From Candidatus Iainarchaeum sp. (GTDB lineage Archaea; Iainarchaeota; Iainarchaeia; Iainarchaeales; GCA-2688035), in contig JAFCCO010000011.1 in the NCBI GenBank assembly GCA_017610175.1, forward strand, positions 1 to 46,281: a DNA stretch of 46,281 bases, written 5' to 3'. Positions 9,792 through 25,905 of this stretch are shown here, in pieces (the first letter of the stretch is position 1; every line of letters starts with the position of its first letter). Made by a program: the position numbers and the translations under genes. Below the pieces are notes generated by a model, which saw only the letters and a list, made by a program, of their open reading frames with translations, made no database searches and was not told where the DNA came from.

Positions 9792-12588
9792 GACACTTAT
9801 TGCATTAATGCTTTGCCTGCTGTTGGCGTCACTTGCAATGGCTGCACAGCCGGAGCTTCCTGACGCAAACGTTGATGCCAACGCAAACGCTGGGGTGGAC
9901 GCAAACGCCGGAGTGGATGTAAATGCGGACGCAAACCAGGAAGAGCCCCTGCCGGACGAGTGCTTTGCAGTTGGCCCGCCGTCATTTGATGACCCTGAAC
10001 TGGTTGCAACATGCGAAAAGCTTTCAACAGGCGGATGCACAGGACCCATTTTTGGGGGAGAACACTGCAGTTACAACAATGACTGGATGGCGCTGAGAAC
10101 CGGCGCAAAGGTTCTTACATTTAATATGGGGTGGACTCCTGATGTGGCGGTTGGAATTGACGGAAACACCTTTGTTGTGCCAATCTTTACAACACTAACG
10201 GTTGGCACTTTCACTGAATTTATTGCACTGTGCTTGGATGGTGCTTCTGGAGCATCATACCCGCACTCGGTTGACATGTATGTGGACGGGGACAGGATGA
10301 GCAGAAACTGGGATATAGCCGGCAGAGGCAGCTGTTTCGGGGGGTACATTCTTAGATTTATGGACAAGGATTTGAACTACACTTTCAACGTGCCGGGCTT
10401 CCACTATGTACGCCTTATCTTTGACACACAGCTAAATGGAATGTGCGCAAAGAACTTTGAGGACGGCGAGTTTGCAGTAATTGTAGTGCACCCGCTCCTC
10501 ACAATCAACGGAACAGACGACCAAATACTTTCATTTGAGGACGATGAAGAAACCAAAACAACTTATGTTACCTGGACCCTAAGAAACGCGGGGTCATCGC
10601 TTGCAAGAGTAAAGAGTGTTAGTCCAACAGGCTGTGAAGCAGGGGTTTCATGTGAAATTCTTGGCTTTGGGGTTGTTCGCGACTATGATGTGAAATGGGA
10701 AGTTGCCGCACTCGTAACCCTTGACGACGGAAACACAATGGATGTGTTTGAGTCGGGGGAGGGGGACTCAAATTTCTCAGTTACAATTGTTGCGGACGAG
10801 AACAGGGCAATCCAAAACGTCGAAATAGTTTCTGTTTCACCCGCAAATTCTGCTTTCTCGGAAACAATTGTGCAAAATGATGACAACACCTGGACTGTAA
10901 GCGGAGACGTAAATGTTGTTGACCAGGTTGGGGTTGCAATGGATTTGGAGCCCAACGAAAGCCTTGTGCTTGTCCAAAAAGTAACGGCCTCAAAACCGTC
11001 CTCCGCCGTTGCAAACAATTATTTGGGATTGGACGTTGAATACACCGATGAATTTGATGCAGGAACATTCTTCAAGTCAGGGGATGAGGTAAGAATTTCA
11101 AGGCTCTGGCTTGAAAGGCAGAAATTCCACGTTGAACTCTATGGGGGGGCCCAAGAGGCATGCATTGGAAAGGACGGAAGGCTTGGCAGCACAGGCCCGG
11201 GAGATGTTCCGCGCGTGCTCTTTGACTGGAGCTGGCCAACAATAAAAAGCGACACCTGCAACAAGAAGTTCGAGGGGCAGACAGACTTTGTATACTGTGA
11301 CCAAACCCAGTTTATGATGTCGCTGATTAACAGGCTGCACGAAATGGACAGGTTTGCAATGGACGGTAATTTAGACCGCGCGGCTTCACTTGAACACTTC
11401 CAGGCATACCTAATGGGCGGAACGTTCAATTCAGATTTCAGAAAGGACTTTGACAACTTCAACAGAAACATTGAAATAGAAACAGTGCAATGGTATCACC
11501 TTGATTCGGAAAAACCGTGGTACAAGTATGTTTTGAATGAAGAAAGCCTTGTGTTTGACGCGGATGAGATAACAACCGGATTGTATGATGTAAGCATTGA
11601 AATAGAGTTCCACCGCGACAAGTATGACTTCTTCCGCGAAGGCAAGCAACTTGCCGACATTAAGGTAAAGTTTACCAAAATAAGAAGCCCGTATTTTAAG
11701 AACCCGTTCTACTATCTCCCGCTCAACGGGGAAGTTGGATACTACCGCGTTGACGAGGACGGTTCTGTTGGAAGAAAAGGTTATGGGCTTGGGTTTGAAG
11801 GGGATGTTCTCACAATAGACAGCGGGGCATGGCTTTCAACCGAAACCGCAGATGGGAGTGCAATTGAAGGGCAAGACATGATTTCAACAAATTACAGCAG
11901 TGACTTTGACTCCCTTAACATAGCAAAGCGCGGAATTCTTCTCTCAGTATATCCCATAGGGGAACAGGTGTCTGCAATAGAATTCTCACCATCAGACGCC
12001 ACCCCTGTAATACTGCGCATTGACGGTGAAGGAAACGAGCGCATTGACGGTTATTACCAGCTTGTGGAGGAACCAAACAACCTAGTTTCATCACAGCACA
12101 ACTACCTGTCCCTTTGGACAGGGTTTGCTTCAAACCCAATGCAGTGCCTGAATTTTGACGAGTCCGCACTGCACTACCGCATGCCTGACTTAAGAGGCCA
12201 GGCCCAAACCGCTTCATCCCCAACAACAGCATACGGGTTTAGCTGGGCAGATGTTTCTGAGGAAAACAGGTCAGGAAGCCTGTTTATGCAGTCAGTGTTC
12301 TACACCCCAATAGACAAGGCAATGTCCCTAAGCACCGAATCTGCAAATATTGCGCTATTTGGCCCGGATGGTGGAGCCCCGACAATTGCACTGGATTACA
12401 TGCAAATGCAGCACACGCTTGAAAGCGTCTTCGAGCTTGTGGAACAGGGTTATGTTTGTTCAAGCATTGAGGGTGACGCGCTTGAATTCTGGTGGAACCC
12501 GCAGATGCTTAGAAGCGACCTTGACGCGGTTAAGGATGCGGAGATTGAGGAAAGCTGGATTTGCCAGGTTGAAACAGAGATAACATAG
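9784..12588 (+). CDS. secreted large protein with Asp-Ala-Asn-rich N-terminus (surface protein C)
   Basis: A 934-residue protein of unknown function. I chose ATG 9784 because it gives a typical signal peptide (MHKTLIALML..., cleavage after about residue 20) and an 8-nt overlap with gene B (ATGCATAA). The longer frame from 9739 would put charged residues in front. After cleavage comes a tract rich in Asp-Ala-Asn triplets (residues about 25-48), then beta-rich domains. From about residue 450 to the end it matches the C-terminal 540 residues of the 2272-aa protein: shared features include YCDxTQFxxSLxxRL, DFRKD and a WWNPQ/RWNPQ ending. There is no transmembrane segment, so it is either released or held by proteins A and B. 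It is the last gene of the three-gene operon, with AT-rich DNA after its TAG stop. Confidence 0.84.
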   Translation: MHKTLIALMLCLLLASLAMAAQPELPDANVDANANAGVDANAGVDVNADANQEEPLPDECFAVGPPSFDDPELVATCEKLSTGGCTGPIFGGEHCSYNNDWMALRTGAKVLTFNMGWTPDVAVGIDGNTFVVPIFTTLTVGTFTEFIALCLDGASGASYPHSVDMYVDGDRMSRNWDIAGRGSCFGGYILRFMDKDLNYTFNVPGFHYVRLIFDTQLNGMCAKNFEDGEFAVIVVHPLLTINGTDDQILSFEDDEETKTTYVTWTLRNAGSSLARVKSVSPTGCEAGVSCEILGFGVVRDYDVKWEVAALVTLDDGNTMDVFESGEGDSNFSVTIVADENRAIQNVEIVSVSPANSAFSETIVQNDDNTWTVSGDVNVVDQVGVAMDLEPNESLVLVQKVTASKPSSAVANNYLGLDVEYTDEFDAGTFFKSGDEVRISRLWLERQKFHVELYGGAQEACIGKDGRLGSTGPGDVPRVLFDWSWPTIKSDTCNKKFEGQTDFVYCDQTQFMMSLINRLHEMDRFAMDGNLDRAASLEHFQAYLMGGTFNSDFRKDFDNFNRNIEIETVQWYHLDSEKPWYKYVLNEESLVFDADEITTGLYDVSIEIEFHRDKYDFFREGKQLADIKVKFTKIRSPYFKNPFYYLPLNGEVGYYRVDEDGSVGRKGYGLGFEGDVLTIDSGAWLSTETADGSAIEGQDMISTNYSSDFDSLNIAKRGILLSVYPIGEQVSAIEFSPSDATPVILRIDGEGNERIDGYYQLVEEPNNLVSSQHNYLSLWTGFASNPMQCLNFDESALHYRMPDLRGQAQTASSPTTAYGFSWADVSEENRSGSLFMQSVFYTPIDKAMSLSTESANIALFGPDGGAPTIALDYMQMQHTLESVFELVEQGYVCSSIEGDALEFWWNPQMLRSDLDAVKDAEIEESWICQVETEIT

Positions 12589-12626
12589 CTGTTCAGCCCC
12601 CAAAACAAAAATTTATTAATACTAAA

Positions 12627-12664
12627 AGTATTCTTATTTAACATTAGTATTCTTATTTAGTGTT
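12627..12664 (+). repeat. two tandem 19-bp repeats ahead of the giant gene (operator/promoter candidate)
   Basis: The 14-mer AGTATTCTTATTTA occurs at 12627-12640 and again at 12646-12659, a 19-bp period. The following 5 nt of the two units (ACATT, GTGTT) are also similar. Just upstream, AATACT-aaa-AGTATT (12618-12632) forms an inverted repeat sharing the first half-site. The second copy holds a TATA-like TTATTTA about 30 nt before the ATG at 12685. A doubled core promoter or a regulator site spaced about two helical turns apart is inferred. Confidence 0.55.
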
Positions 12665-12684
12665 AAAAGGACTGTGATTAAGGA

Positions 12685-15600
12685 ATGGATGCGGGCGGTA
12701 CTGACATAGTAGGGGCAATAAAGAAGGGCTATTACTTCTTTGAGGACCGTTACTACAAGGTCTTGGACAAAATAAACAAGGTCATCCCGATTTACAAGAT
12801 AGTGGATCCGATTGACAAGGTTTTCCCTTCATTTATTTTGTTAATTTCGCTTGTGCTCTTTACCCTGCTTTTATTCCTAATAGTTAATCCCTTTGCACCG
12901 GGACTGCAGTACACAACAATTCTCAAGGTAACGGACCAAAGCAACAAGGTGCTGGAGGGCGCAACAATAGTTGTAAGTTCTGACTTTTTAGCCAAAAGCA
13001 TTGAGGACGAAACCGATGATTTCGGGGAACTTTCAGTGTCCATTCCTGCAGATGAATTTGGGGCGACAGTTTCGGTTTCATTGGACGGTTATGCTACAGT
13101 GGAAAAGGAAATAACCCTGACAGACGGGGACACAAAGACAATTAAGCTATCCAGGGCCACTGTTGAGTTTGAGGGAAAGGCTGAGCAGAGAACAATTCTC
13201 CTCTACAACTCGGTCACAGGGAGAAAGATTGACATTGAGGCAACCGTTGAATTCAGCTGTGCAAGCGGGCAAGGAAACCCGATTTCCCAAACAAGAAGTG
13301 ACGGCACATTTAAGGTAACCCAGCCGGCAAACTGCGGCAGATTAACAGCAACAGCCAGGGCAAACGGCTTCAAAAGCAAAAGCCGCGCCATAAGCCAGTC
13401 CCTCACCAGAATAAACCTCGAGTCTGAGGAAACAACTGGAAAAATTCTTGTTACGGTTAAAACATCTGAGGGTGATAATGCACCGGACGTCTCACTCTCC
13501 TTGCTTGACTCCACCACAAATTCCGAGGTTGCTTCAGGAAGCACATCCTCAAGCGGCACCTTCCAGTTTACTGATGTGCAGCCAGGAACATACAAAATAA
13601 ATGCCGCACCGCTCGCGGGTGCACCAACCACAAAAACAGGAATCAACGTTCAGGCAGGGCGCTCTGAAAGCGTGGTAATAAGCCTGCCTGAAGTGCTTGA
13701 GGGAAAAAACCTTTTCATAAAAGTTATTGATGCAAATGCAGGTACCAAGGTTGTGAACGCAAAAGTTGTTTTCTACAGTGGGGCAGAGCCCCTCAACTCA
13801 GGTGCGACACAGGTGGACGGCACAATCAGGCAGCAAATTTCAGATGCAAGCGCGCCCTACAGTGCTGTCGTAACCCACCCTGATTTCCTGACCTCAATTG
13901 TTCCAAGCGTTCCGGTTCAGGACGCGGCAGAAACCGAACCGTTTGAGGTTGAGCTTACAAGAAAAACAATAGCACCCCCCCACAATTATCCCCTGATTTT
14001 TGTGAAAGTTATTGACGAGGAAAGTGTTCCGGTTTCAGGGGCATCAATAGTTATTTACCACAAGGATTACCCTAATCTTCCGCTGAACTATCCTGCGGTG
14101 CAGTCAAATGCAGACGGAAACTACGTGTTTGATTCCCTGCATGAGGGCACGTACTTTGTGCTTGCCAGCAAAAACGAGGCAAGCGGCGAATCGGAGGAAT
14201 TCTTTGCCCCGAAAAACGAAAGCGTTTTCATAAGCGTGGTTGTTGTTTTGGGCGAAGGGGATGTGGAGGTTGTTGTAAGCCGGGCAGGAAGCGAGGAAAT
14301 GGTTGAAAATGCGACGGTTGAGTTCATCAATGTTGCCACAAACGAAGTTCTGGACAGCTGCACAACCGACATTGACGGTGAATGTGCGTCAAACCAAATT
14401 CCCGCAGACAAAAAGGTTTATGTAAAAGCGTCAGCCCCAACTTTCTTATCATCCCTTGGGTCGCGCGAAATAGACATTGTAAACAATTCAACTGCCGAAG
14501 AGCACATTGAGCTAATAAGCCTGAGTGACCTTCCAACCGACCAGGACATTATGGTTGAGTTTGTTAAAATTTGCGATGATGCGACCTGTGACGGGGAAGT
14601 CAATGTTCTTGAAAGCGACGCAGATGTAACGCTTTCATACTTTGCACGCTTCAATCTTTTGCTTCTAAAGGACTCGGTAACTTTTGACGAGGTAGTCCAG
14701 CACATCAGGGCAGGCTCAAATACGCAGCAGGAACTGCCTTCCGCAGGTTATGGAATAAGGCTTGAGGAAGGGGACCTTCCAGCCGCAGGAGGAATCCCAA
14801 GCTATTTAAGCTGCTGGGACAACACAAGCAATTTCTTTGAAAGGACCGACTGCACTGACAGGGGAAGCTACAAGATGGTTAATTTCCACTGGACTGACCT
14901 TGGCCAGATTTTAATTCCGGTAACCGTAAAATTCAACATAGAACCAGGCCTTGAAGACGGTGAAGAGATAAGGCTCTACTATGAGGGGCAGGCCGATACA
15001 AACACAGACACGCTTTCAACCCCTGAAAAGGTTGAGATTTTTTCAATAGGCGAGGTTTTCTGCGGTGACAACACAAGCTTTGCATGGCGCTTTGAGCTTG
15101 AAAATGAGGAAACAAACGAACGAACCAGAATTTCTGCAGGGGATGACGATGATGCAGTTCCAATTCAGGTGAATTCAAGATATGTCCTGGATTACTGGGT
15201 ATACAATTGCTCGGGTGGCAGAGTCAGTTCAGCCGTGCTGAATGCAGAAAACATTCATCCAAACGACAACAAGCCAATTGAATTCAGGGACGGGGCAGGG
15301 CAAGCGCTGGCGTCCGATGTTCCAATCGAACTTTTCTCACAGGCATTTCCAAACAGCACTGATTTGAACAGTGCGACAGGGGACGTTGACGGCATAAACA
15401 TGTTCACTGTGTTTGAAACAGGCGGAAGCCCAACCGAAGTCAGGCTGAGACTTACCGCGGACGGGGACGCACCAAACCAGAACGACGGTTCAGAGCAAAA
15501 CATATTCTTTGAAATAGAGGCTTCAGGGGAACTTGATTTAAGGTCGGTTCCTGAAAAGCTTTCAAACGTTGCACTGCACCCCGGGCTTGAGGGAATAGTT

Positions 15601-18600
15601 GTTGACAGGGCCACAGGCCTGCCAATTGAGGGGGCGTCGGTTAAGGTAACCATTCCAACAGCACCGGAACAGGAAATAACCGCACTTAATCCGACGAGCG
15701 CAACCGGTTTGTTTACATTTGGCGAAAGCATCCCGCAGCTTTTGTCGGTTAACAAAGTTACCCTTGAGGTAAGAAAGGCGGGCTATGCAATTCTGGAGCA
15801 GGATATTGATGTAGGGGGAATAGCCGTCATTTGGAACCCCGATTTTGACTGCATTGACATTGATCCTGTGGAAATTTCACTCAGAAGGGATCGGCCACAG
15901 AACATGGGTGACTTAACGATAAATACACAGGACTGCAACCGCGATGTCGAGATTTTGATTGAAAGCCCGCTTGTTGTAAGCGAAGACACTTTTACGCTTG
16001 CAAGCACGGATTCATACACAATAACTGTTGCCGCACAACATCCCCTCAACTACGGTTACCCCCTTGGAATAGGCGAATACCCCGTTTATGTAAGGGCACG
16101 CTTTGACGAGGATGAAGACGGCCAGTTTAATGCATTGGACGGCCCGCACAGCGGAAACCTCAAGAGGGCAAGAATATTCCTAACAGACCCGACAGTCTGC
16201 TTCAGGCTGGCCGACCCGGACGATCCGACAAATGAGGGCGCAATGAAAAGCAGCTTTGACTTAAGGGGCGAGCCTGATTCAGGGCTTATAGTTAATGATG
16301 AAGACGACTGTTTCCGATACATTGAGGACAGCTCACTTCCAATGCTTGCTCCACACTATCTTGAGCCCCCAATGAACGAGGGCGCTTTCTTAATTGACAT
16401 GGCCGAACTTAGAAGGGATCCGCCTGAAAAGGTTGTAATGACTGAGGTTTTAAGCAACCTGCATATCACTCCCGGTCACAATTATGAGGCAAGCGTTACT
16501 CCAAACGGGGGCTTTGTTTCACTGCAGTGGGTTGACTTCCTAATGACAGACGGTTCACACAATGGGGGGGACACACACAGGGTTTGGGCGCAGAGAATGA
16601 GGGACGGCTGCCAGGAGTCACTTACAGGTTCGGTTGTGGGCGATTGCTTCAACATCACAGGGCAATACCCTTACACTGCAGCACAATCGGGATGCAGAGA
16701 TGCTAGGCAGGCGGCGGACAAATGCCCGATTCCTGCACACCCAATTATTAGCAATGACACCGATCCGCAGAAAGACGGCTGGGTTGACACAGACACATAC
16801 CATCCAAACGACGCGGTCTACGAAACACAGGTAAGCGGTGCACCAATCTGGCAGGCAAGGCACAATATTTGCAACAACCAAACAGAATGCACTGTTGACG
16901 GCATTGGCCCAAAGCAATACTTTGTTGGAAAGAACGCGGACAAGTTTATTCTTGAGGTAGTGGGTGAAAGCACCGTGCTGAGCAAAGTGCAGTGGGAATA
17001 CTGGAATTACGACATTGACCACGAGGGGCAGATTGAATTTGAACTGGTCAACAATTCCGTTGTTGGCGAAAACTATGCCCTGCTAAAGGTCACTGACACA
17101 ATAAAGGAGCCGGGCGAGGTTGAAAACGAGGACGTTTCCTTTGACTGGGTTGTCACTGCAATCGGAAGCAAAGACTGGGTGGAGTTAGACAGCGTAATTG
17201 CTCCGGCCAATGCGGTTGAAATCCTGAGCACCAAAGTGCTTGGTGTTGCGGCAAGTGCGGACACAACCCCGCGAACCAAGGTATACAATTTTGACACATC
17301 GCTCAACCTTCACGGAAACCTCAATGATTTCTTCAATGACGAGCAATTCCAGCTGCTTGTGGCGGATTTGGGGGCAAACGAAATTGACATTGACGACTTT
17401 GCGCTGAAATTTTCACAAAATGCCACCTGCAAAACCAATGAGTGCATGAACAGCTTGTTTGTGCTGTTTTACACAGGCTCATGGGACTTTGCCCTAAATG
17501 GCGCAGACATGATTGATGGGAACGGGGAACTAATAAATGACGGCATATTCACAATGGACTTCCTTGAGATACAGGGTGCGCCGCAAAACATCAGGGCTTA
17601 CGCAATTATCCATGACGGCGAGCAAAGCGGAAGATTTACAGTGGAATCCCTTGACCAGAATACCGCATTCAGTGAGGAAGAGACAAATCTTGCAACTGCA
17701 AGCGGAACAGGGGTTATTCCCGCAGGGCAAAGCAAGTCATCTGCAATAAGCTTTAGTGTTGACATTCCGGACTCAAATGGCTACGAAATTGAGTATTATG
17801 TAAGTACCGACGCAGCCGGAGTTTCTGCCTTCTTTGATGAAATCGGAGCGCCGACAAGTACAAGCGACCCAAATGCGCAGATAATCGGTGAAATCTCAAC
17901 AAGAAAAGTTGCGAGAGTGGAAAACGTTGACTATATCCACGTAAGGCTTGTCGGGCAGGAAGCCATGGACTGCATTGGGTTTGACAACGCCATTGGCGCA
18001 ACCGGTGAGAAAAACAAGCCGCGTGTGCGCTTCAACTGGCAGTGGGACCTAATTGACAAGGACTTATGCAGCCAGGGCAACGAGAATTACATTTACTGTG
18101 ACTCAACACAGTTCACAATTTCACTGCTGCACAGGCTTGAGGAAATAAGGGCCCTTGCGCAGCTGGGAATTAATGAAGCAAACCTTGCCACAATACATGA
18201 GCTAAGGGAATTCAACGCATACCTTATAGAGGACAGTATCACAGAGGACTTTAGGAAAGACCTCAAGGATTATTTGATTAATGTTGCCTCTCCCGATCCG
18301 CAGGAAAGCCTGCTGGCTGATGACCATCCGTGGCAGGAGTATCTTGAGCAGGGAGACGATTATTCAAGGCTTAATTTCAGCAACACAGTTCTTGAAGCAG
18401 GCCTTTACAATGTATCCATAAGCTTCAGCTTTGACTTGCCGCAGCTCCAGTACAACTTTTTCGGCGGGGACTGCATACCGGACTGTGGGAGCAAGGACCT
18501 CATTGGAACAATTAATGTCTCCCTTGAAAAGATTTCGGGCCCACCGGTTAACAGCCCGTTCTACAGGCTGCCTTTCGACGGGTCGGTTGGGGAGCTTGCA

Positions 18601-19503
18601 GACGGGGGCTTTGACAGGCAAGGATACGGTGTGTTCTTTACAAATGTGGATTCCCCGATTGTTTTGATTGGGGACCTGGAAAGTGAAGAGGACTATCTGC
18701 GCACTGTCTCAGACTCAGGTTTCAAAGAGCTTGTAACAATTTTTGAGGAAGACATCTCCTTCCTGAATGCAGAGGAAGCAACAAAGGGACAGCTTTTGAC
18801 CATTACAAAAGAGGAGAGCCCGACAATGGAGTTCTCTCCAAGTATTGCAACACCTGTGCTTCTTGAAATGAACTCACCGGGCGGGGCATCGGAGGCATTC
18901 TATTACTTGCTTAAGACCGATACCGCACTTACATCCGGTGGAATAATGAGCATGTGGTTTGGAACAGGCAGCACTATGGGTGACGGCCCAAGCCAGTGCA
19001 GAACATTTGGCGGGGCACAAATGCCTTACATACAAAAGGACCAGTCTGCCCAGAACTTCCCGGGTGCATGTGCCGCAGAACTTCCACAGTCATTCTACAA
19101 TGCATCATACGGCTTCAAGTACGACGGTGTTGAAGTGGATGAGAAAGTCTTCTTTGAAACAGTGTTCTTTATTCCTGAAAGCATGAAGAAAGAGGTTGTG
19201 TTGATTGACAGCTGCGGCAACAGCAGCAGTGCAGTGTTCCACGCCCCATCTGCAAGCACTGCCGGAACCGCTCAGCTTGACATAAGCATGGAGAGCCAAA
19301 ACCGCATTGTTTCCGTGCAGGATGTAATTGACTTTGTGGGAGACGGCCGTGTATGTGTTTACGAGGATTCAGACAAGATTTCGTTCAGGTGGAACCCGCA
19401 GAGGCTAATTGATGATTTGGACGAGGTCAAGGCAAACATCCCGGGCATTGTTGACTGGGAAACGGATGCACGCTGCAACGTAAAGAGGCCGGGCGTATCC
19501 TAA
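12685..19503 (+). CDS. 2272-aa N-terminally anchored surface protein, apparent fusion of A-like and C-like parts (surface protein D)
   Basis: A paralogue of the upstream surface proteins. Residues 1-48 are a cytoplasmic head with the same PIYKxxDPIDKVFPSFILLI motif as protein A, and residues 49-67 are a transmembrane segment. The ectodomain begins with carboxypeptidase-regulatory-like repeats. Its middle matches protein A, for example GLEDGEEIRLYY against GLEDDTDVEIRY, and GEYPVYVRARF against GQYPIYVQAKF. From about residue 1740 to the end it matches protein C from residue 450 on. Residues about 1390-1700 look specific to D. It has many Cys and N-x-S/T sites, compatible with disulfides and N-glycosylation. 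It has its own upstream repeat region and is followed after 9 nt by a prepilin-type peptidase gene. I do not recognise a named family. A cell-envelope or contact role is inferred. Confidence 0.85.
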   Translation: MDAGGTDIVGAIKKGYYFFEDRYYKVLDKINKVIPIYKIVDPIDKVFPSFILLISLVLFTLLLFLIVNPFAPGLQYTTILKVTDQSNKVLEGATIVVSSDFLAKSIEDETDDFGELSVSIPADEFGATVSVSLDGYATVEKEITLTDGDTKTIKLSRATVEFEGKAEQRTILLYNSVTGRKIDIEATVEFSCASGQGNPISQTRSDGTFKVTQPANCGRLTATARANGFKSKSRAISQSLTRINLESEETTGKILVTVKTSEGDNAPDVSLSLLDSTTNSEVASGSTSSSGTFQFTDVQPGTYKINAAPLAGAPTTKTGINVQAGRSESVVISLPEVLEGKNLFIKVIDANAGTKVVNAKVVFYSGAEPLNSGATQVDGTIRQQISDASAPYSAVVTHPDFLTSIVPSVPVQDAAETEPFEVELTRKTIAPPHNYPLIFVKVIDEESVPVSGASIVIYHKDYPNLPLNYPAVQSNADGNYVFDSLHEGTYFVLASKNEASGESEEFFAPKNESVFISVVVVLGEGDVEVVVSRAGSEEMVENATVEFINVATNEVLDSCTTDIDGECASNQIPADKKVYVKASAPTFLSSLGSREIDIVNNSTAEEHIELISLSDLPTDQDIMVEFVKICDDATCDGEVNVLESDADVTLSYFARFNLLLLKDSVTFDEVVQHIRAGSNTQQELPSAGYGIRLEEGDLPAAGGIPSYLSCWDNTSNFFERTDCTDRGSYKMVNFHWTDLGQILIPVTVKFNIEPGLEDGEEIRLYYEGQADTNTDTLSTPEKVEIFSIGEVFCGDNTSFAWRFELENEETNERTRISAGDDDDAVPIQVNSRYVLDYWVYNCSGGRVSSAVLNAENIHPNDNKPIEFRDGAGQALASDVPIELFSQAFPNSTDLNSATGDVDGINMFTVFETGGSPTEVRLRLTADGDAPNQNDGSEQNIFFEIEASGELDLRSVPEKLSNVALHPGLEGIVVDRATGLPIEGASVKVTIPTAPEQEITALNPTSATGLFTFGESIPQLLSVNKVTLEVRKAGYAILEQDIDVGGIAVIWNPDFDCIDIDPVEISLRRDRPQNMGDLTINTQDCNRDVEILIESPLVVSEDTFTLASTDSYTITVAAQHPLNYGYPLGIGEYPVYVRARFDEDEDGQFNALDGPHSGNLKRARIFLTDPTVCFRLADPDDPTNEGAMKSSFDLRGEPDSGLIVNDEDDCFRYIEDSSLPMLAPHYLEPPMNEGAFLIDMAELRRDPPEKVVMTEVLSNLHITPGHNYEASVTPNGGFVSLQWVDFLMTDGSHNGGDTHRVWAQRMRDGCQESLTGSVVGDCFNITGQYPYTAAQSGCRDARQAADKCPIPAHPIISNDTDPQKDGWVDTDTYHPNDAVYETQVSGAPIWQARHNICNNQTECTVDGIGPKQYFVGKNADKFILEVVGESTVLSKVQWEYWNYDIDHEGQIEFELVNNSVVGENYALLKVTDTIKEPGEVENEDVSFDWVVTAIGSKDWVELDSVIAPANAVEILSTKVLGVAASADTTPRTKVYNFDTSLNLHGNLNDFFNDEQFQLLVADLGANEIDIDDFALKFSQNATCKTNECMNSLFVLFYTGSWDFALNGADMIDGNGELINDGIFTMDFLEIQGAPQNIRAYAIIHDGEQSGRFTVESLDQNTAFSEEETNLATASGTGVIPAGQSKSSAISFSVDIPDSNGYEIEYYVSTDAAGVSAFFDEIGAPTSTSDPNAQIIGEISTRKVARVENVDYIHVRLVGQEAMDCIGFDNAIGATGEKNKPRVRFNWQWDLIDKDLCSQGNENYIYCDSTQFTISLLHRLEEIRALAQLGINEANLATIHELREFNAYLIEDSITEDFRKDLKDYLINVASPDPQESLLADDHPWQEYLEQGDDYSRLNFSNTVLEAGLYNVSISFSFDLPQLQYNFFGGDCIPDCGSKDLIGTINVSLEKISGPPVNSPFYRLPFDGSVGELADGGFDRQGYGVFFTNVDSPIVLIGDLESEEDYLRTVSDSGFKELVTIFEEDISFLNAEEATKGQLLTITKEESPTMEFSPSIATPVLLEMNSPGGASEAFYYLLKTDTALTSGGIMSMWFGTGSTMGDGPSQCRTFGGAQMPYIQKDQSAQNFPGACAAELPQSFYNASYGFKYDGVEVDEKVFFETVFFIPESMKKEVVLIDSCGNSSSAVFHAPSASTAGTAQLDISMESQNRIVSVQDVIDFVGDGRVCVYEDSDKISFRWNPQRLIDDLDEVKANIPGIVDWETDARCNVKRPGVS

Positions 19504-19512
19504 TTCATTTCA

Positions 19513-20574
19513 GTGGCTGATTGCATGCTTTTTTTCTATGCAAGTGTTTTTCTGGTTTCCCTGCTTGGGGCACTTTCGTCCTACACAGACATAAGGTTTG
19601 GAAAAATTCGCAATATATTTGTTTTTCCCGCAATCATTGCGGGAATTGTGATTGCAGTTCTTTCAGGCGCAAACCCTGTTGCCTTTTTTGCAAATGCATT
19701 TCTTGCCTTTGCGTTCGGCTTTGTGCTTTACCTTGCCCGCCTGTGGAGTGCAGGGGACAGCAAGCTCTTTCTTGCGTTTGCAATTCTTTTCCCGTTCAAC
19801 TTATACTCGCAGGGATTTGCCCTCTTTCCCGCATTCTCAATCCTGCTCAATTCATTCATTCCGGCATTTGTGGTCCTGTTCATTGCGTCAATTGTGAAAA
19901 CAAGTTCCAAGGAAAAGTTTGCGGCACTTGAAAAGGCCCTTGACCCAAAGTCACTGGCGTCAATTGCGATAATTCTCTTTGCGTTCTACTGGCTTGTAAA
20001 CATGCTTTTTTCAGCTCTTGCAATCCCCGCAGATTTCTTTCTTGTGGTGATTATTTTGTTCCTGTTCATTTCAATTCTTGAAAAGGCGTTTCCCAAAAGA
20101 ATAGTGCTTGTTTCGGCAATACTGTCAGGCCTATTGGGTGCATTGAACCTAAACGAGCTTTTGCAGCCCGATTTCTGGCTCATATTCGCTTTTATTTTCA
20201 TTTCGATGATTTTCCTGCGTTTTTTCATACTCTACCTTGGCTTTTTTGCCTTTGGGCAAAGGGTTGAGGTCAAGGACTTAAAGTCTGGAATGGTGCTTTT
20301 GGAGGGGGTTTATGAGAAAAACGGCTTTTTTGAGAAAAAAAAGCTTTTCTTCCCCTCAATTGTGAATGCGCTTCAGGACATTAAAACAAAGTATGTTTTT
20401 AACCTTTCTTCAAAGGGGCTGAGTGAGGAAGATGTTGAACTGCTTCGCAGTAAAAACAAGGCAAGAATGTTGAGTTTCCACTCCCTTCTTGTTCAGGAAA
20501 CAATTCCCTTTGCCCCGCTTTTGTTTGTGGGAACTTTGCTTACTTTTGCCTGCTCCATTATTCCCTGGTGCTGA
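19513..20574 (+). CDS. type IV prepilin/preflagellin-type aspartic peptidase (FlaK/PibD-like)
   Basis: A polytopic membrane protein of the A24 peptidase family, which in archaea cuts class III signal peptides of pilins and archaellins on the cytoplasmic side. The two expected Asp are visible: D26 in YTDIRFGKIRN after the first helix, and D82 in SAGDSKL, equivalent to the family GxGD, with Ser replacing the first Gly. About seven further hydrophobic segments follow, so at 353 aa it is longer than the minimal archaeal enzymes. GTG 19513 gives this length, and an ATG at 19525 is an alternative with little effect. It follows the 2272-aa gene by 9 nt and is probably cotranscribed. No pilin-like gene is visible in the window, so its substrate is unknown. 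Confidence 0.85.
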   Translation: MADCMLFFYASVFLVSLLGALSSYTDIRFGKIRNIFVFPAIIAGIVIAVLSGANPVAFFANAFLAFAFGFVLYLARLWSAGDSKLFLAFAILFPFNLYSQGFALFPAFSILLNSFIPAFVVLFIASIVKTSSKEKFAALEKALDPKSLASIAIILFAFYWLVNMLFSALAIPADFFLVVIILFLFISILEKAFPKRIVLVSAILSGLLGALNLNELLQPDFWLIFAFIFISMIFLRFFILYLGFFAFGQRVEVKDLKSGMVLLEGVYEKNGFFEKKKLFFPSIVNALQDIKTKYVFNLSSKGLSEEDVELLRSKNKARMLSFHSLLVQETIPFAPLLFVGTLLTFACSIIPWC

Positions 20575-20580
20575 GATTTG

Positions 20581-20614
20581 TTTAAATTGCTTTCACACCC
20601 TTAATTTTACGGTG
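20581..20614 (+). promoter_or_regulatory. promoter and ribosome site of the hxs operon
   Basis: TTTAAATT at 20581-20588 lies about 35 nt before the hxsD ATG, right for an archaeal TATA box giving a leader of under 10 nt. GGTG at 20611-20614 sits 4 nt before the ATG. It begins 7 nt after the peptidase stop, so the hxs genes can be transcribed independently of the surface cluster. Confidence 0.55.
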
Positions 20615-20618
20615 CACA

Positions 20619-20939
20619 ATGGCTTTGGAAAACTTTGAAATAAACAAGACCGAGAATTACGCCCTTGTTTCGGTAAATCCGAAAATTTATTCCCTGGGGG
20701 TTGTTTTTGCAGCATCCTATGCTCTGCTTGAAAAGGCGTTTGTTGTAATAGATGGGGATCCCGCCGACCAAATAATTGTTTCAATAAGGCCAAAGAGTGG
20801 AAATGGAATTGAGGGGCTTGCAAACGAATTCAACGAACAGCTAATCAATTTTGCGGTAAACTTTGACCAAAGCGAGAAGACAAAGAACATTAGGGAAGAA
20901 TTCATAAAGCAGGCCTTTATGGGGCACTCGTGCGAGTAG
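20619..20939 (+). CDS. hxsD: His-Xaa-Ser system protein HxsD
   Basis: A 106-residue protein of the HxsD family, the small conserved partner of the two radical SAM enzymes in His-Xaa-Ser systems. Its biochemical role is not known to me. Family features visible here are an N-terminal strand with NPKIYSLGVVFAASY, a second strand block (ADQIIVSIRPK), and a C-terminal helical region with ANEFNEQLINF and IREEFIKQAF near residues 67-100. These resemble the Asn-Glu-Leu-Leu and Arg-Glu-x-Ile-x-x-x-Ala-Phe signature I associate with HxsD. It has its own TATA box. The TAG stop is followed immediately, without a gap and in the same frame, by the next gene. Assignment rests on sequence pattern and on context (hxsB, hxsA and hxsC downstream). 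Confidence 0.8.
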   Translation: MALENFEINKTENYALVSVNPKIYSLGVVFAASYALLEKAFVVIDGDPADQIIVSIRPKSGNGIEGLANEFNEQLINFAVNFDQSEKTKNIREEFIKQAFMGHSCE

Positions 20940-21188
20940 GTGTTTTGCATATACCAAATCAAGGCAGACCAAGGCAGCGGAAAGGCATTTCTTGACCTGA
21001 ACCCGTTTTTTTACCCTCCTGAAGCAATTGAAAAAACTGTGGAGGCATTCAAGGAACTGTGCAGCATCAAAACAATCAGGCAGGGGCAGAGGCTTGAGCT
21101 TGAACTTAGCGCGGTCAACAAAGCGGACTGCGAAACAATCGCGCTCAATTTTCTCAACTATGCGCTCTCTCTCAGGCGGGAGATGTAA
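20940..21188 (+). CDS. second HxsD-like protein
   Basis: An 82-residue protein that lines up with HxsD: FLDLNPFFYPPEAIEKTVEAF against VSVNPKIYSLGVVFAASYAL, then a basic hairpin, a strand (RLELELSAV) and a helix (ALNFLNYALSLR). It lacks the C-terminal IREEFIKQAF helix of the first copy. The start is GTG, directly after the upstream TAG; AGTAGGTG overlapping the junction may act as ribosome site. Its TAA stop is likewise followed directly by the hxsB ATG. It is probably a diverged duplicate of hxsD that could form a heterodimer with it, or an adaptor for the radical SAM enzymes. Both roles are inference. Confidence 0.7.
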   Translation: MFCIYQIKADQGSGKAFLDLNPFFYPPEAIEKTVEAFKELCSIKTIRQGQRLELELSAVNKADCETIALNFLNYALSLRREM

Positions 21189-22556
21189 ATGCAGTTTGCA
21201 AAATACTTTACTCACCGGGTTGGAAACCGGTTTGTGCTGATTACCGACACCGGAAACTGGGTTGATGTTTCAAAAAGCGAGCTTGAAAGGATCAAAGCAG
21301 GAAAGCCAGGCCCGGAGCTTGAAAAAAAGCTTGAGGAAAAGAGAATTGCAATAACCGACTCCAACAAGCGGGCAATGCAGGAGGATTACTCCAAAATGTA
21401 TTCGCATTTAACTCACGGGGTTTCGCTTCACATAGTCAATCCCTCAATGCGGTGCAACCACTCCTGCCCCTACTGCTATGCAGAAGCGCACCCTATGAAA
21501 AGCAAGGGCTTTGATTTGGATGAGAAGACCGCAAAGAAAATAATTGATTTCATCTGGGAAACCAAGAGAAAAAACTTTGTGATTGAGTTCCAGGGCGGAG
21601 AGCCGCTTGCAAACTTTGAAGTAATCCAGTTCATAATGGATTACGCAAAAAAGAAGGGCAAAAAGAACGTGCACTGGAGGATGGTAAGCAACCTTTCCTT
21701 AATGGATGAAACAATTGCATCATGGATGAAGAAAAACGGACTGCTTGACATCTGCACAAGCCTTGACGGACCCGCAAAGATTCACAACAAAAACAGGCCG
21801 CTTGAGGGCGGAAGCCATGCAAAGGTTGTGCACTGGATTGACTCGCTGAGAAAAGACTTTGGGTTTGAAAATATTGGAGTGCTCTGCACTGTAACAAAGC
21901 ACAGCCTTCCGTACGCGGATGAAATTGTGCAACAATACCTTGACCTTGGCCTGCACGACATTACCCCTGTTCCAATAAGAAAAATTGGGCGTGCGCGGGA
22001 AACCTGGAGCAGCATTGGCTACGAGCCAGGGGAATACATTCCGTTCTGGGAAGAAACTGTAAACAAATGCATTGAGAGCACAAAGCAGGGGACACCAATA
22101 ACCGAGCAGTTTGCGCTCATGGTTCTGCAGAAAGTTTACGGGCGAAGAACAGCTTTCCACACCTGTTTCAGCAAGCCGTGCGGAGCCGCTTTAATGCAGG
22201 CGTCCTACCAGCCGGACGGAAGCATTTACACCTGTGACGAGGGAAAGGCATGCGAACTGTTCAAGATAGGGGATGTTTCGCAGAAATACAGCGAAGTTTT
22301 CACTTCCCCGAATGCGCTGAACATGGTTTCATTAAGCTCCTCCCTTGGGCTGCTGTGCAACGAATGCAAGTGGACGGCATTCTGCTCATTTTGCCCTGTG
22401 ATGGCATATGCGTCGGAAGGAAGCCCTATTCCGGTTCTCTACAAAAATGCGGACTGTGTAATAAGAAAGGCACAGTTTGAATTCGTGTTCAAAGGAATTT
22501 TTTCAGGCAACAAACCCGTTTTTGAGCAATGGCTTGGTGCAAGCAAAGATTTATAA
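21189..22556 (+). CDS. hxsB: radical SAM/SPASM peptide-modifying enzyme HxsB
   Basis: A 455-aa radical SAM enzyme expected to modify the HxsA peptide. The [4Fe-4S]-SAM motif is CNHSCPYC (C89, C93, C96), followed by FQGGEPL for SAM binding. A C-terminal SPASM-type region carries many Cys (about residues 324-430, including HTCFSKPCG, YTCDEGKAC, LLCNECKWTAFCSFC and NADCVI), fitting auxiliary clusters. Residues 1-55 form a small domain that resembles the PqqD-like recognition region found at the start of many peptide-modifying enzymes. This is inferred. The SD-like GGGAGATG overlaps the end of the previous gene, and the ATG follows its TAA directly. Among radical SAM/SPASM families, HxsB is chosen because of the flanking HxsD and HxS peptide. 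The chemistry is not predictable from sequence. Confidence 0.85.
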   Translation: MQFAKYFTHRVGNRFVLITDTGNWVDVSKSELERIKAGKPGPELEKKLEEKRIAITDSNKRAMQEDYSKMYSHLTHGVSLHIVNPSMRCNHSCPYCYAEAHPMKSKGFDLDEKTAKKIIDFIWETKRKNFVIEFQGGEPLANFEVIQFIMDYAKKKGKKNVHWRMVSNLSLMDETIASWMKKNGLLDICTSLDGPAKIHNKNRPLEGGSHAKVVHWIDSLRKDFGFENIGVLCTVTKHSLPYADEIVQQYLDLGLHDITPVPIRKIGRARETWSSIGYEPGEYIPFWEETVNKCIESTKQGTPITEQFALMVLQKVYGRRTAFHTCFSKPCGAALMQASYQPDGSIYTCDEGKACELFKIGDVSQKYSEVFTSPNALNMVSLSSSLGLLCNECKWTAFCSFCPVMAYASEGSPIPVLYKNADCVIRKAQFEFVFKGIFSGNKPVFEQWLGASKDL

Positions 22557-22586
22557 AACGCGAAACCGTTTATTATAACGGTTGAT
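22552..22586 (+). promoter_or_regulatory. hxsA promoter with 7-bp inverted repeat, shared with the beta-propeller gene
   Basis: TATAAA at 22552-22557 overlaps the hxsB stop. Sixteen nt after its first base comes GTTTATTATAA, then GGTTGATA running into the ATG at 22587. The same blocks at the same spacing precede the propeller gene at 23902. A perfect inverted repeat, AACCGTT-tattat-AACGGTT (22564-22583), covers the expected transcription start and could be an operator or a 5' hairpin. It gives hxsA its own promoter, which fits higher expression of the substrate than of the enzymes. Confidence 0.6.
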
Positions 22587-22805
22587 ATGGTGGAAATTCC
22601 CGAAATCAGGAAAACAATCTCAAGCTATTTAACTGACGAAACTGGTCGAATTACAAAGCACTCCGTGCTCTCGCTTGGGGCAATCCTTGCAAGTGCGGCA
22701 ATTGTTTCCTCAAAGCTTAAAGAGGTTAGTGCCCAAACACTGCATAACCACTCCCATTTGAGCTATGTTCCCCACACAAGCCACAGCAGCCACGGCTCAT
22801 ATTAA
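22587..22805 (+). CDS. hxsA: HxsA, His-Xaa-Ser repeat peptide (modification substrate)
   Basis: A 72-residue peptide between two radical SAM genes. Its first 30 residues are charged and helical, like a leader. A hydrophobic segment follows (VLSLGAILASAAIVSS, about residues 27-42). The C-terminal 20 residues are rich in His and Ser, with four H-x-S triplets (HLS, HTS, HSS, HGS), and the peptide ends in Tyr. This is the hallmark of HxsA, the presumed target of HxsB and HxsC. The hydrophobic segment may be a membrane anchor or secretion signal. Whether the tail is cut off is unknown: no double-Gly or other protease motif is evident. It has its own promoter with an inverted repeat. The assignment is strong from composition and position; the modification itself is inference. 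Confidence 0.85.
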   Translation: MVEIPEIRKTISSYLTDETGRITKHSVLSLGAILASAAIVSSKLKEVSAQTLHNHSHLSYVPHTSHSSHGSY

Positions 22806-22837
22806 TTTTTATTAACTTCAAGCAACTCTATTTTTAC
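22806..22837 (+). promoter_or_regulatory. hxsC promoter, near-leaderless
   Basis: TTTTTATTAA at 22807-22816 follows the hxsA stop directly and sits about 26 nt before the ATG at 22838. Transcription would start at or just before the ATG. No ribosome site is visible, as expected for a leaderless archaeal mRNA. Confidence 0.45.
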
Positions 22838-23845
22838 ATGGGCTTAGCCAAACCTTTTGAGGTTATAATCGAAACAAACGTTTCCTGCAATTATTCCTGC
22901 AGCTTCTGCTTTGCAAAGAATTTTGGGCAAAGGCCAAAACAGGCCTCTGACCGGGATTTGAGAAAGGTTCTTGACTGCATTGCTGCAGAGGGAATTAATC
23001 GGGTAAGATTTACCGGGGGCGAACCTCTTTTGAGGGCTGGCCTGCCCGAACTTGTGGAGCACGCAAAGGAACTTGGGCTCTTCACAAGCCTTAACACAAA
23101 CGCATCCCTTGTTTCAAACAAAATTATCAAACAGCTTGCGGGAAACCTGGATGACGTGCTTGTTTCAATGCACTGCCCGAATGCTGAGTTGGAGGAAAAG
23201 TTTTCAAGCAAGGGCTCTTTTGAAAAAAAAATCAATGCAATCCAGGGCCTGGCGGGCGAAGGGGTTTTTGTGAGGGCTGCAACAATTCTTTCGCCAGAAA
23301 ACATTGCAATATTTGATGAATTGAGGCAATTGGTGCAGAGCCAGCAGATTTCACAGTGGGTTCTTCTCAGGCCAATTCCAAACCCGCTTAACACTTCCCC
23401 AATTTCCCGCATTGAAATTGAGAATGCGGTTGAAAAAGTTGCGGAATTAAATGCCGGCCGAAAAAAAGCAGAATACACAATCATAGAGAATGCGCTTCCG
23501 TTCTGCTGCGGCTCGCCGTCCAAAGTTTCACAGAACGCGCTTGGCGGGTTAAGGGAGGACGGCCACAGCTCGCTCTTCATTGATTCCTCGCTTGCAATAA
23601 AGCCAAGTTACTTTTTGGACGTTTCCCTTGGAAATGCAATAGGCGATTCGATAATGGAGGCATGGAATTCGGATTTTATGGGGCGAATGCACTCGCTTGA
23701 ATTCATCGCAGAACCCTGCCACAAATGTCGCTTTGTCAAAAAATGTATGGGTGGAAGCAGGTTTTCAGCCCTTCTTTGCAACCACAGCCTCTACGCCCTT
23801 GACCCGCTTGCAAACCCGGAAAAACACGCTTCCGAATTGTTCTGA
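22838..23845 (+). CDS. hxsC: radical SAM enzyme HxsC
   Basis: A 335-aa radical SAM protein, the second paired enzyme of the His-Xaa-Ser system. The cluster motif is CNYSCSFC (C17, C21, C24), with FTGGEPL for SAM binding. The C-terminal part has PFCCGSPSKV and CHKCRFVKKCMGG (about residues 225-310), a twitch/SPASM-like set of auxiliary-cluster Cys. It is shorter than HxsB, as in known HxsB/HxsC pairs. It lies 32 nt after hxsA with its own TATA-like element. The division of work between the two enzymes is unknown. MoaA/PqqE-type alternatives are less likely given the neighbouring HxS peptide. Confidence 0.82.
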   Translation: MGLAKPFEVIIETNVSCNYSCSFCFAKNFGQRPKQASDRDLRKVLDCIAAEGINRVRFTGGEPLLRAGLPELVEHAKELGLFTSLNTNASLVSNKIIKQLAGNLDDVLVSMHCPNAELEEKFSSKGSFEKKINAIQGLAGEGVFVRAATILSPENIAIFDELRQLVQSQQISQWVLLRPIPNPLNTSPISRIEIENAVEKVAELNAGRKKAEYTIIENALPFCCGSPSKVSQNALGGLREDGHSSLFIDSSLAIKPSYFLDVSLGNAIGDSIMEAWNSDFMGRMHSLEFIAEPCHKCRFVKKCMGGSRFSALLCNHSLYALDPLANPEKHASELF

Positions 23846-23860: not shown

Positions 23861-23901
23861 TATAAATACCGTGGCTGTTTATTATAAACTGGTTGATACT
23901 A
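23861..23901 (+). promoter_or_regulatory. promoter of the beta-propeller gene, hxsA-like
   Basis: TATAAA at 23861-23866, GTTTATTATAA starting 16 nt later at 23877, then GGTTGATA at 23891-23898 before the ATG at 23902. The block order and the TATA-to-block spacing are identical to the hxsA promoter. GGTTGAT may double as ribosome site. Confidence 0.6.
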
Positions 23902-25905
23902 ATGCCTCAGGAAAATGCAGCATCCGGCCCGCAAAGCGTTGATGAAATCCGCGAAATGGTTCAGCAGGCCGCAAAACAGGACAGCAACAAGAAAAAAGTG
24001 CTTATTGCTGTTGCAATTCTGCTGCTTATTGCATTTATTGCAATAGCATTTGTGATTTTCCAGCCAGCCCAACCAGTTCCACCGGCTCCGCATGAGCTGT
24101 GCGAAAACGGATTGCAGGATGCAGGGGAGGATGGAGTTGACTGCGGAGGCAATTGTGAACAGCCGTGTGTTCCTGACTTTATCCAGTACTTTGCTGTAAA
24201 GCCCGCATCGGTTACTGATGTGGCGGTGAATGAAGCTGCGGGCAGGATTTATGTTGTAGATGAGGCAAGGCATTATGTGATGATTTACGACCTTGAGCTC
24301 AATCACATCTTAAACATTGGGGAAATTGGAGACGAAGAAACTTACAAAAGCGGAAGCAAGGAAAAAGGGGCATTATTTATTCCGGCGGCAATAGCGCTTG
24401 ACTCGCAGGGAAACGTTCACATTCTGGACCGTGACAAAAGAGTCCAAAAGTTCTCAAGTGAGGGAGAATTCATTAGCGAAACAAGGTTTGAGGCCAACAT
24501 TCTTGAAACCTTCCCGAAAATGGAGGACGCCCCGCACATTGACGGGGCGGGAATTTCAATGGCGCTGGCAAACAACGGGAAATATTACATTTCGGACGAA
24601 TTAAGCAGCATTGTTGCAGTCTTTTCGTCAGACTTAAAGCTTGAGAAGGCAATTGGCGGAAGAGGTTCTGGAAACGAACAGCTTGTTTTCCCAGGGCAAA
24701 TAACACTGCAAGGGGACAAGGTGTATGTTGCGGATTCCGGAAACGGACGCGTTCAAATTTTTGATTTGGAACTCAATTACTTCCACTCACTTACGGGTCC
24801 GCTGAAAAGACCCTATGCACTTGATGTTGATAAGGCCGGAAACATTTACGTGCTTGATGCATGGGACAGCAAGCTAAGGGTTTTTGGGGAAAGCTATGCG
24901 CTTAAGGAAGAAACAGGCGGTCTTGGAATGGAAATTGAAATGTTCTACAATCCCTCAAGCATTAAGATTGCTTCAAGCGGAAAGATTTACATTGCGGAGC
25001 AGGGAACTGTGCGTGTTCAAATCCTTGGCGCTGATTTGAAGAACGTTAATACAATTGACGGGATATTTGGGGGAAGCGTTACAGGCTTTCCCGTATTTTA
25101 CGTTGCGGTTGCGCCTGACGGGCGAATTGCTGTAAGTGAGCCAACAAATAACAGGGTAAGCGTATTCAGTTCAACAGGCAGGCACATTAAAAGTATTGGA
25201 AAAATGGGATTTGGAAACGAAGAATTCAACATGCCAAAAGGCGTTGCATTTGACTCACAGAACAGACTGTTTGTAGGGGACTCCTGGAACCACAGAATAC
25301 AGGTTTTCTCCAAAGACCTTGAGTATGTTACGTCTATTACACACCCTGAACTGTACTGGCCTGTGGAGGTCGAGGTTGCAGATGACGGAAGAATTTACGT
25401 TGCAGAGGACACATCAAAGAAAGTTTTAATGTTTGACAAACTCGGGGAATTCATTGGGGAAATTTCCGCGTCAAACGGAATCACCCTGCCGCTTGGAATT
25501 CTTGCAGAGGGAGACAGGCTTTACATCACAGACGACCTTGAAAAAACAATTGAGGTCTTTGACAAGGACCTTGTTCCGATTGAAAGCATTGGTGGGATAG
25601 ATGAGGGTACCGGAGCCCATGTGGAATTTAATGAAAGCCTTGCGCTTGATTCGCAGGGAAGAATAATGTTTTGCGACAACCGAAACAGAGCAGTTGTTGT
25701 GTACGACTTTGGAACAAAGCAGTTCTCAACATTCGGAGACTTTGGGGCTTCGGCAGATGAATTAAGTGTGCTGGAAATTGACATCTCTGAGGACAAGAAA
25801 ACAATTGTGGTTTCAGACCTCTACAACAAGATGGTTGTTCTATTTGATGGGACAGGCAAGCAAATAGGCGAAATCACGGTTGAAAACATTCCAATCTATT
25901 CATAG
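23902..25905 (+). CDS. membrane-anchored NHL-repeat beta-propeller protein
   Basis: A 667-aa extracellular protein. ATG 23902 is chosen over an upstream TTG at 23893 because the TTG lies inside the SD-like GGTTGATA block. Residues 1-31 are a cytoplasmic Gln/Lys-rich head and residues 32-54 a transmembrane helix. A small Cys motif follows (CENGLQDAGEDGVDCGGNC and a further Cys, residues 67-89), of a kind seen between anchors and ectodomains. The rest is a series of NHL-type blades, with recurring G-x-I/V-Y-V-A/T-D-x-x-N/D-x-R-V-Q-V-F motifs, at least ten in number. NHL propellers usually bind proteins, peptides or glycans. The promoter matches that of hxsA, so a link to the HxS peptide is possible but unproven. 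The 3' end overlaps the opposite-strand gene by 10 nt. Confidence 0.85.
   Translation: MPQENAASGPQSVDEIREMVQQAAKQDSNKKKVLIAVAILLLIAFIAIAFVIFQPAQPVPPAPHELCENGLQDAGEDGVDCGGNCEQPCVPDFIQYFAVKPASVTDVAVNEAAGRIYVVDEARHYVMIYDLELNHILNIGEIGDEETYKSGSKEKGALFIPAAIALDSQGNVHILDRDKRVQKFSSEGEFISETRFEANILETFPKMEDAPHIDGAGISMALANNGKYYISDELSSIVAVFSSDLKLEKAIGGRGSGNEQLVFPGQITLQGDKVYVADSGNGRVQIFDLELNYFHSLTGPLKRPYALDVDKAGNIYVLDAWDSKLRVFGESYALKEETGGLGMEIEMFYNPSSIKIASSGKIYIAEQGTVRVQILGADLKNVNTIDGIFGGSVTGFPVFYVAVAPDGRIAVSEPTNNRVSVFSSTGRHIKSIGKMGFGNEEFNMPKGVAFDSQNRLFVGDSWNHRIQVFSKDLEYVTSITHPELYWPVEVEVADDGRIYVAEDTSKKVLMFDKLGEFIGEISASNGITLPLGILAEGDRLYITDDLEKTIEVFDKDLVPIESIGGIDEGTGAHVEFNESLALDSQGRIMFCDNRNRAVVVYDFGTKQFSTFGDFGASADELSVLEIDISEDKKTIVVSDLYNKMVVLFDGTGKQIGEITVENIPIYS

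Follow-up and report, generated by a model that had tools for sequence, protein, structure and literature searches.

A variant Hxs cassette in a Diapherotrites archaeon with a prepilin-like precursor leader and its own A24 peptidase

A 46,281-nucleotide stretch of a Diapherotrites genome (hereafter, the window) carries a variant Hxs system in which the precursor peptide, HxsA, begins with a prepilin-like leader and a prepilin-type A24 peptidase gene forms part of the cluster. We propose that HxsA is a pilin-like RiPP of DPANN archaea whose HxS triplets are modified by radical SAM enzymes and which the cassette's own A24 peptidase cleaves, a reading to which we assign a probability of about 60%. 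That a dedicated pilin-type peptidase travels with the cassette, here and in relatives, suggests a small-pilin architecture for the peptide. The lifestyle of DPANN archaea places them on or next to other cells, yet, to our knowledge, little is known about the surface peptides that they make. If the proposal is correct, RiPP leader removal would gain a further class of protease, pilin-like surface peptides would include a previously unknown kind, the EEG-KISK leader could be used to find further precursors of this type, and the uncharacterised Hxs system would gain a concrete and testable maturation route.

Gene content of the cassette

The host is a member of the Diapherotrites (DPANN) represented by a metagenome-assembled genome of 1.24 Mb that is 90% complete, in line with its earlier recognition as an archaeon. 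The initial annotation had placed a complete HxsA-D set in five open reading frames. All five were found at their reported positions, including a 72-aa peptide with four C-terminal HxS triplets (22587-22805) and the HxsD and HxsD-like genes that accompany it, but the cassette as a whole is larger than had been proposed, since the A24 peptidase gene directly upstream (19513-20574) also belongs to it. The features are as follows.

19513..20574, + strand: A24 prepilin/preflagellin-type membrane aspartic peptidase with an Arc_PepC C-terminal domain (PF01478 30.9 bits, cut-off 26.5; PF06819 25.4 bits, also above cut-off)
20581..20588, + strand: TATA-like box TTTAAATT, about 31-38 nt 5' of the HxsD start, kept in most close relatives
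20619..20939, + strand: HxsD homologue, 106 aa (TIGR03976 41.5 bits, E 1.2e-10, cut-off 50)
20940..21188, + strand: HxsD-like paralogue, 82 aa, GTG start (NF038315 52.4 bits, passing the cut-off of 41)
21189..22556, + strand: HxsB-type radical SAM/SPASM maturase, 455 aa (TIGR03978 330 bits, cut-off 370)
22550..22558, + strand: TATA-like box TTTATAAAA 5' of the HxsA precursor, kept in close relatives
22587..22805, + strand: HxsA precursor, 72 aa, HxsA3-like, four HxS triplets, C-terminal HGSY (NF038309 38.1 bits, cut-off 65)
22587..22646, + strand: prepilin-like leader MVEIPEIRKTISSYLTDETG within the precursor, with predicted A24 cleavage after Gly20
22838..23845, + strand: further radical SAM protein, 335 aa, whose C-terminal Cys set is short; rejected as HxsC (TIGR03977)
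23893..25905, + strand: membrane-anchored NHL-repeat beta-propeller protein (PF01436, six stretches); ATG 23902 is the likelier start

Because orthologues of the cassette reading frames lie in the same order in about a dozen Diapherotrites genomes, we regard them as genes and not chance reading frames. The order A24-HxsD-HxsD-like-HxsB-HxsA was seen repeatedly across the surveyed loci. In the window, the HxsD, HxsD-like and HxsB genes abut (20939/20940 and 21188/21189). The archaeal TATA boxes that had been reported were recovered as TATA-like boxes 5' of HxsD and HxsA; given the conserved box 5' of HxsA, this gene seems to be expressed from a separate promoter, an arrangement that would fit a precursor needed in excess.

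Judged by sequence, four of the five genes are Hxs-related (HxsD, HxsD-like, HxsB and HxsA) and the fifth is not HxsC. The profiles bore out only part of the proposed HxsA-D set. Under the refutation rule given with the initial annotation, the classic assignment fails for HxsC; HxsB and HxsD fell below their cut-offs yet had Hxs models as their best matches, the HxsD-like protein passed its cut-off, and the HxS precursor matched HxsA3 best, below cut-off. The product of the gene at 22838 scored 32.5 bits against TIGR03977, for which the cut-off is 267.9, while two unrelated radical SAM proteins of the same genome scored 39 and 33.6, and we rejected it as HxsC. No protein in the genome passed 267.9. 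The set thus differs from the classic A-B-C-D complement, and the cassette is a variant Hxs system.

TIGR03978 was by far the best NCBIfam match of HxsB, with the next family at 116 bits. The radical SAM motif C89xxxC93xxC96 is followed by C331...G344...C349 and C390xxC393x5C399xxC402...C423, a Cys set that is invariant in 15 homologues and follows the full SPASM-type pattern. The PDB relatives of HxsB were peptide- and sulfatase-modifying radical SAM enzymes, including the radical SAM domain protein 5wgg (CteB), sulfatase maturases and others.

For the HxsD homologue, TIGR03976 was the sole family match in the NCBIfam search, and no sequence relatives were found in the PDB. Its AlphaFold model (pLDDT 91) reads beta-beta-alpha-beta-beta-alpha-alpha. 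The order of strands and helices is identical in the model of the HxsD-like protein, and the two families retrieve each other in iterative HMM searches. We considered HxsD as a PqqD-like recognition element and rejected it, as the predicted fold is of the beta-beta-alpha-beta-beta-alpha type and not a winged helix. The common predicted fold weakly resembles RpoL/Rpb11, Pcc1 and DCoH (best E 2e-3 and 1e-2, TM about 0.5), which are families that pair; a heterodimer of HxsD and HxsD-like is plausible.

The precursor tail, HLSYVPHTSHSSHGSY, consists of the four HxS triplets. Despite these, the precursor had no match to TIGR03979 (HxsA), and it scored 21.4 bits against HxsA4 (NF038313, cut-off 55). 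HxsA3 (NF038309), its best match, was matched by 30/30 sampled precursor homologues (E<=0.01). Since NCBIfam holds models for HxsA3 and the HxsD-like protein, curators already knew these protein families.

The second radical SAM protein has C17xxxC21xxC24 plus C294, C297 and C303. Its best NCBIfam matches, TIGR04053 (91.8 bits, cut-off 395) and GeoRSP (86), lie far below cut-offs and are generic radical SAM/SPASM families. Orthologues with 44-63% identity were present in nine relatives. Other DPANN carry tandem arrays of HxsC-related radical SAM proteins that score up to 209 bits, none over the cut-off. Runs of about 5-6 radical SAM genes in tandem, many of them HxsC-related below cut-off, flank HxsB in the loci L064, L066, L113, L115 and L119, which belong to Micrarchaeota, Woesearchaeota and CPR.

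The A24 peptidase and the precursor leader

Genome contigs were scanned with an HxsB alignment, and the best 80 of 559 relatives (69 archaeal and 11 bacterial loci) formed a survey set that is biased towards the query. Within the flank covered, an A24 gene was present in 57/80 of these loci (54/69 archaeal and 3/11 bacterial), directly upstream of HxsD in 41 and directly after HxsB in 6. In a tree of the 57 linked and 18 unlinked A24 peptidases, the latter from Diapherotrites, 56 linked sequences form one clade (support 100/100), and the one left outside it is an additional, bystander A24 of L113. Nearly all Hxs-linked enzymes conserve the catalytic D26 and D82, with L102 as an exception, and in most of them the second Asp motif reads W[STP]AGDxKLF, against GGGD in the other A24 peptidases of the phylum. 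No relatives of the A24 peptidase were found among PDB sequences.

Across 87 Diapherotrites genomes, full-scoring HxsB matches (>640 bits) occurred in 19, a count that excludes a 310-bit match in G075, and NF038315 was over its cut-off in about 17-18. Hxs-type A24 genes were called with a profile built on the linked enzymes, whose whole-length scores leave a gap between 147 and 124 bits, and were present in 18/19 genomes with HxsB and in 0/68 without it (Fisher 1e-17, a value that ignores relatedness). In the sole exception, G034, the contig is short and breaks off next to HxsD. Genomes with HxsB have 2.8 A24 genes on average and those without have 1.8. Of 20 genomes checked because their locus flank lacked A24, 8 carry the Hxs type elsewhere, and the remainder are mostly bacteria. 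Judging from these distributions, an A24 peptidase of this type is dedicated to the Hxs cassette.

The peptidase might instead serve another protein, such as the lineage-specific giant surface proteins or pilins encoded elsewhere, and adjoin HxsD for other reasons. Genes upstream in the window do encode giant CarboxypepD_reg surface proteins, and 13 loci with A24 had no recognisable HxsA within the flank covered. The giants, however, occur in a single Diapherotrites group. The association of A24 with Hxs extends over many lineages of DPANN and some CPR, and no other family recurs equally widely in the loci. We consider this explanation quite improbable.

Two degenerate Hxs-type enzymes were also observed. 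In the A24 at L102:6556-7602, YDQL marks the loss of the first catalytic Asp and SSD stands at the site of the second, and HxsA was not recognised in the locus; this pairing of a degenerate enzyme with precursor loss is a single case in a limited stretch, and we set it aside as unusable. At G017:C31:4195-5020 (in L075), the gene is broken into two reading frames.

The leader is the second part of the argument. Among 55 distinct precursors, the consensus is KxIxSFLxxEEG/KISK or near (the slash marks the presumed cut), followed by a hydrophobic run, and the motif E-x-G-x-[IML]-[ST]-K is found in nearly all of them. The presumed -1 residue is G in 53/55 and A in 2/55; the pattern search demanded G or A here, no precursor failed, and an independent alignment agrees. 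E stands at -3 in 54/55, I, M or L at +2, S or T at +3 in 52/55, K or R at +4 in 55/55 and G at +11 in 51/55. Compared with prepilins, the residues that are mostly K or R at +1 and K at +4 are atypical, as is Glu at +5 in only 9/55. The window precursor reads DETG/RITK and shows the charged N-terminus, G/A at -1 and hydrophobic segment of class III signals, with atypical residues from +1 to +5. Pfam pilin models did not match HxsA. In three bacterial loci (L091, L109 and L110), the leader is present in genomes with only ordinary A24 or none, which counts against the proposed pairing of leader and peptidase.

When A24 enzymes cut class III signals, the charged part is removed and some 20 hydrophobic residues stay with the product (PMC4858521). 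The precursor and HxsB are adjacent in most surveyed loci, and apart from HxsD no non-enzyme family other than HxsA is widespread among them. Taken together, the prepilin-like leader, the known cutting by A24 enzymes and this recurrence point to HxsA as the natural substrate of the peptidase.

An ordinary secreted RiPP would look similar in some respects. The hydrophobic segment of HxsA would then be a Sec signal, with signal peptidase I cutting at the AxA-like site, the N-terminal block would be only a docking leader for HxsD and HxsB, and A24 would only degrade or trim the remnant. AxA-like residues do follow the hydrophobic segment and precede the His-rich part in many homologues, and in classic bacterial HxsA2 the corresponding position is taken by a plain signal peptide. 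The AxA-like site is poorly kept, however, in comparison with the nearly invariant EEG motif, and a dedicated, monophyletic and nearly constant A24 with an intact active site would be left unexplained. We regard this reading as unlikely.

The tails are far more variable than the leader, from 37 HxS triplets (L079) down to none. In a further alternative, HxsA would stay unmodified and bind metals as a His-rich membrane peptide, and the radical SAM enzymes would act on another target. HxS/HxH repeats could bind metals, and some precursors have lost HxS repeats (PPPPPPHYSY, PPPKPTHASY) in loci that retain the enzymes. Against this, HxsB lies next to the precursor in most loci, many precursors still end in HxS[YW], and in RiPP clusters repeat peptides beside SPASM enzymes usually serve as their substrates. 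We consider an unmodified peptide highly improbable.

Several precursors depart from the common form. In the Diapherotrites loci L025 (genome G027), L027 and L040, proline-rich stretches replace the HxS repeats and the C-terminal HxSY is kept. The second radical SAM gene is absent beside HxsA in G027, and we considered its loss as the cause of repeat loss; two of the three repeat-poor precursors keep the enzyme, and the idea was dropped. At the other extreme, precursors of L037, L079 and L082 have 26 to 37 triplets in near-pure SHGSHSSHGSH tails. The HxsA leader is also fused to long proteins at L073:4104-5741 (545 aa, with a Ser/Thr repeat tract) and L097:3977-5368 (463 aa).

Known systems and a proposed maturation route

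Classic Hxs systems (HxsA/HxsA2-HxsD-HxsB-HxsC; TIGR03976-TIGR03979, NF038296) share with the window cassette a cluster of HxsB, HxsD homologues and an HxS-repeat precursor. The window cassette differs in that HxsD is present as a pair of paralogues, HxsC is absent, an A24 peptidase is added, and the hydrophobic segment of the precursor follows a long, charged EEG leader. In the classic plasmid loci that we examined, at most a single HxsD is annotated, HxsC is present, A24 is absent and the precursor has a plain signal peptide; two classic bacterial precursors begin with an ordinary short one. The NCBIfam variant families (NF038309, NF038313, NF038315, NF038332) come closer, in that the HxsD-like protein passes and HxsA3 is the best match of the precursor, but the precursor remains under the HxsA3 cut-off (38/65) and the protein at 22838 is far under that of HxsC4 (NF038332, 49 bits against 500).

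Archaeal type IV pilin and archaellin processing (PibD/FlaK and EppA, with class III signals) likewise combines an A24 enzyme that has both catalytic Asp residues with Gly at -1 before a hydrophobic segment. The Hxs enzymes, in contrast, read xAGD where the phylum's other A24 peptidases read GGGD, and they form a separate clade; in HxsA, K or R occupies +1 and K occupies +4, and no ATPase or platform gene was found in the locus. No pilus ATPase or platform gene was found to recur in the surveyed loci either, which is a weak point of the pilin-like reading.

The chemistry of HxsB can be approached by analogy. Known products of SPASM enzymes include His(i)-Cbeta(i+2) and Phe-Cbeta(Ser) crosslinks, with Phe-Ser and His-Ala as examples (PMC11002830). 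The triceptide or three-residue cyclophane enzymes MscB and HaaB link an aromatic residue i to the i+2 beta carbon, with His and Ser among the partners, which matches HxS spacing. Because such i to i+2 crosslinks are known, the HxS triplet suits a His-Ser crosslink, and this would be the likeliest product of HxsB, although HxsB is another SPASM family than MscB and HaaB and its chemistry is proposed here by that analogy.

We envision the following route. HxsA would be made from its own promoter, and HxsD and its paralogue, probably as a heterodimer, would present it to HxsB and, in this cassette, also to the second radical SAM enzyme. The two enzymes would modify the His-rich tail, most likely by a triceptide-like bond from His to the Ser beta carbon (i to i+2) within every HxS triplet. 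The hydrophobic segment would insert into the membrane, where the dedicated A24 peptidase would cut off the charged leader after the conserved Gly (EEG/KISK in general, DETG/RITK here). What remains would be a short pilin-like helix with its modified tail outside the cell, presumably on the surface.

To the wider proposal, that DPANN and some CPR make radical-SAM-modified, pilin-like peptides by a RiPP pathway merged with type IV prepilin processing in which the cassette's own A24 is the leader peptidase, we would give even odds. The A24 protease class is absent from a review of RiPP leader proteases (PMC10885120). Our searches of open-licence papers (Hxs in archaea; A24 with radical SAM) found nothing relevant, and within that literature no published account of an A24 partner or prepilin-like leader of Hxs was found. 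Both the dedicated prepilin-type peptidase and the prepilin-like leader of Hxs thus appear to be unreported within open-licence papers.

Spread and neighbourhood of the cassette

The best 80 of 559 HxsB loci come mostly from DPANN (Diapherotrites, Woese-/Nano-, Aenigmat-, Micr- and Altiarchaeota and nanohaloarchaea), together with some CPR, Myxococcota and Schekmanbacteria. An HxsB tree, which the initial annotation had called for, was built; the window sequence falls inside a 13-member Diapherotrites clade (support 100/99) within an archaeal block, and the plasmid HxsB of classic systems is placed among bacteria. This clade and the gene order common to the family argue that the cassette is long established, as had been suggested. 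The view that Hxs is mainly bacterial did not hold, given the close HxsB relatives across many DPANN lineages and the existence of NCBIfam models for the variant parts. Three loci titled Chloroflexota, Thaumarchaeota and Falkowbacteria (L054, L057 and L058) carry Diapherotrites-type Hxs contigs and group with Diapherotrites; these are likely mislabelled bins.

The NHL-repeat protein downstream adjoins the cassette in one Diapherotrites group only, and we regard it as lineage-specific and at most a putative member. On the other side, positions 3589-19503 of the window encode large secreted proteins (1491, 576, 949 and 2272 aa) with CarboxypepD_reg and Ig-like domains, and a giant protein lies upstream of the cassette in about ten related loci. 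Farther upstream, at 2-3523, is an archaeal Hel308-like helicase split by an intein with a LAGLIDADG domain.
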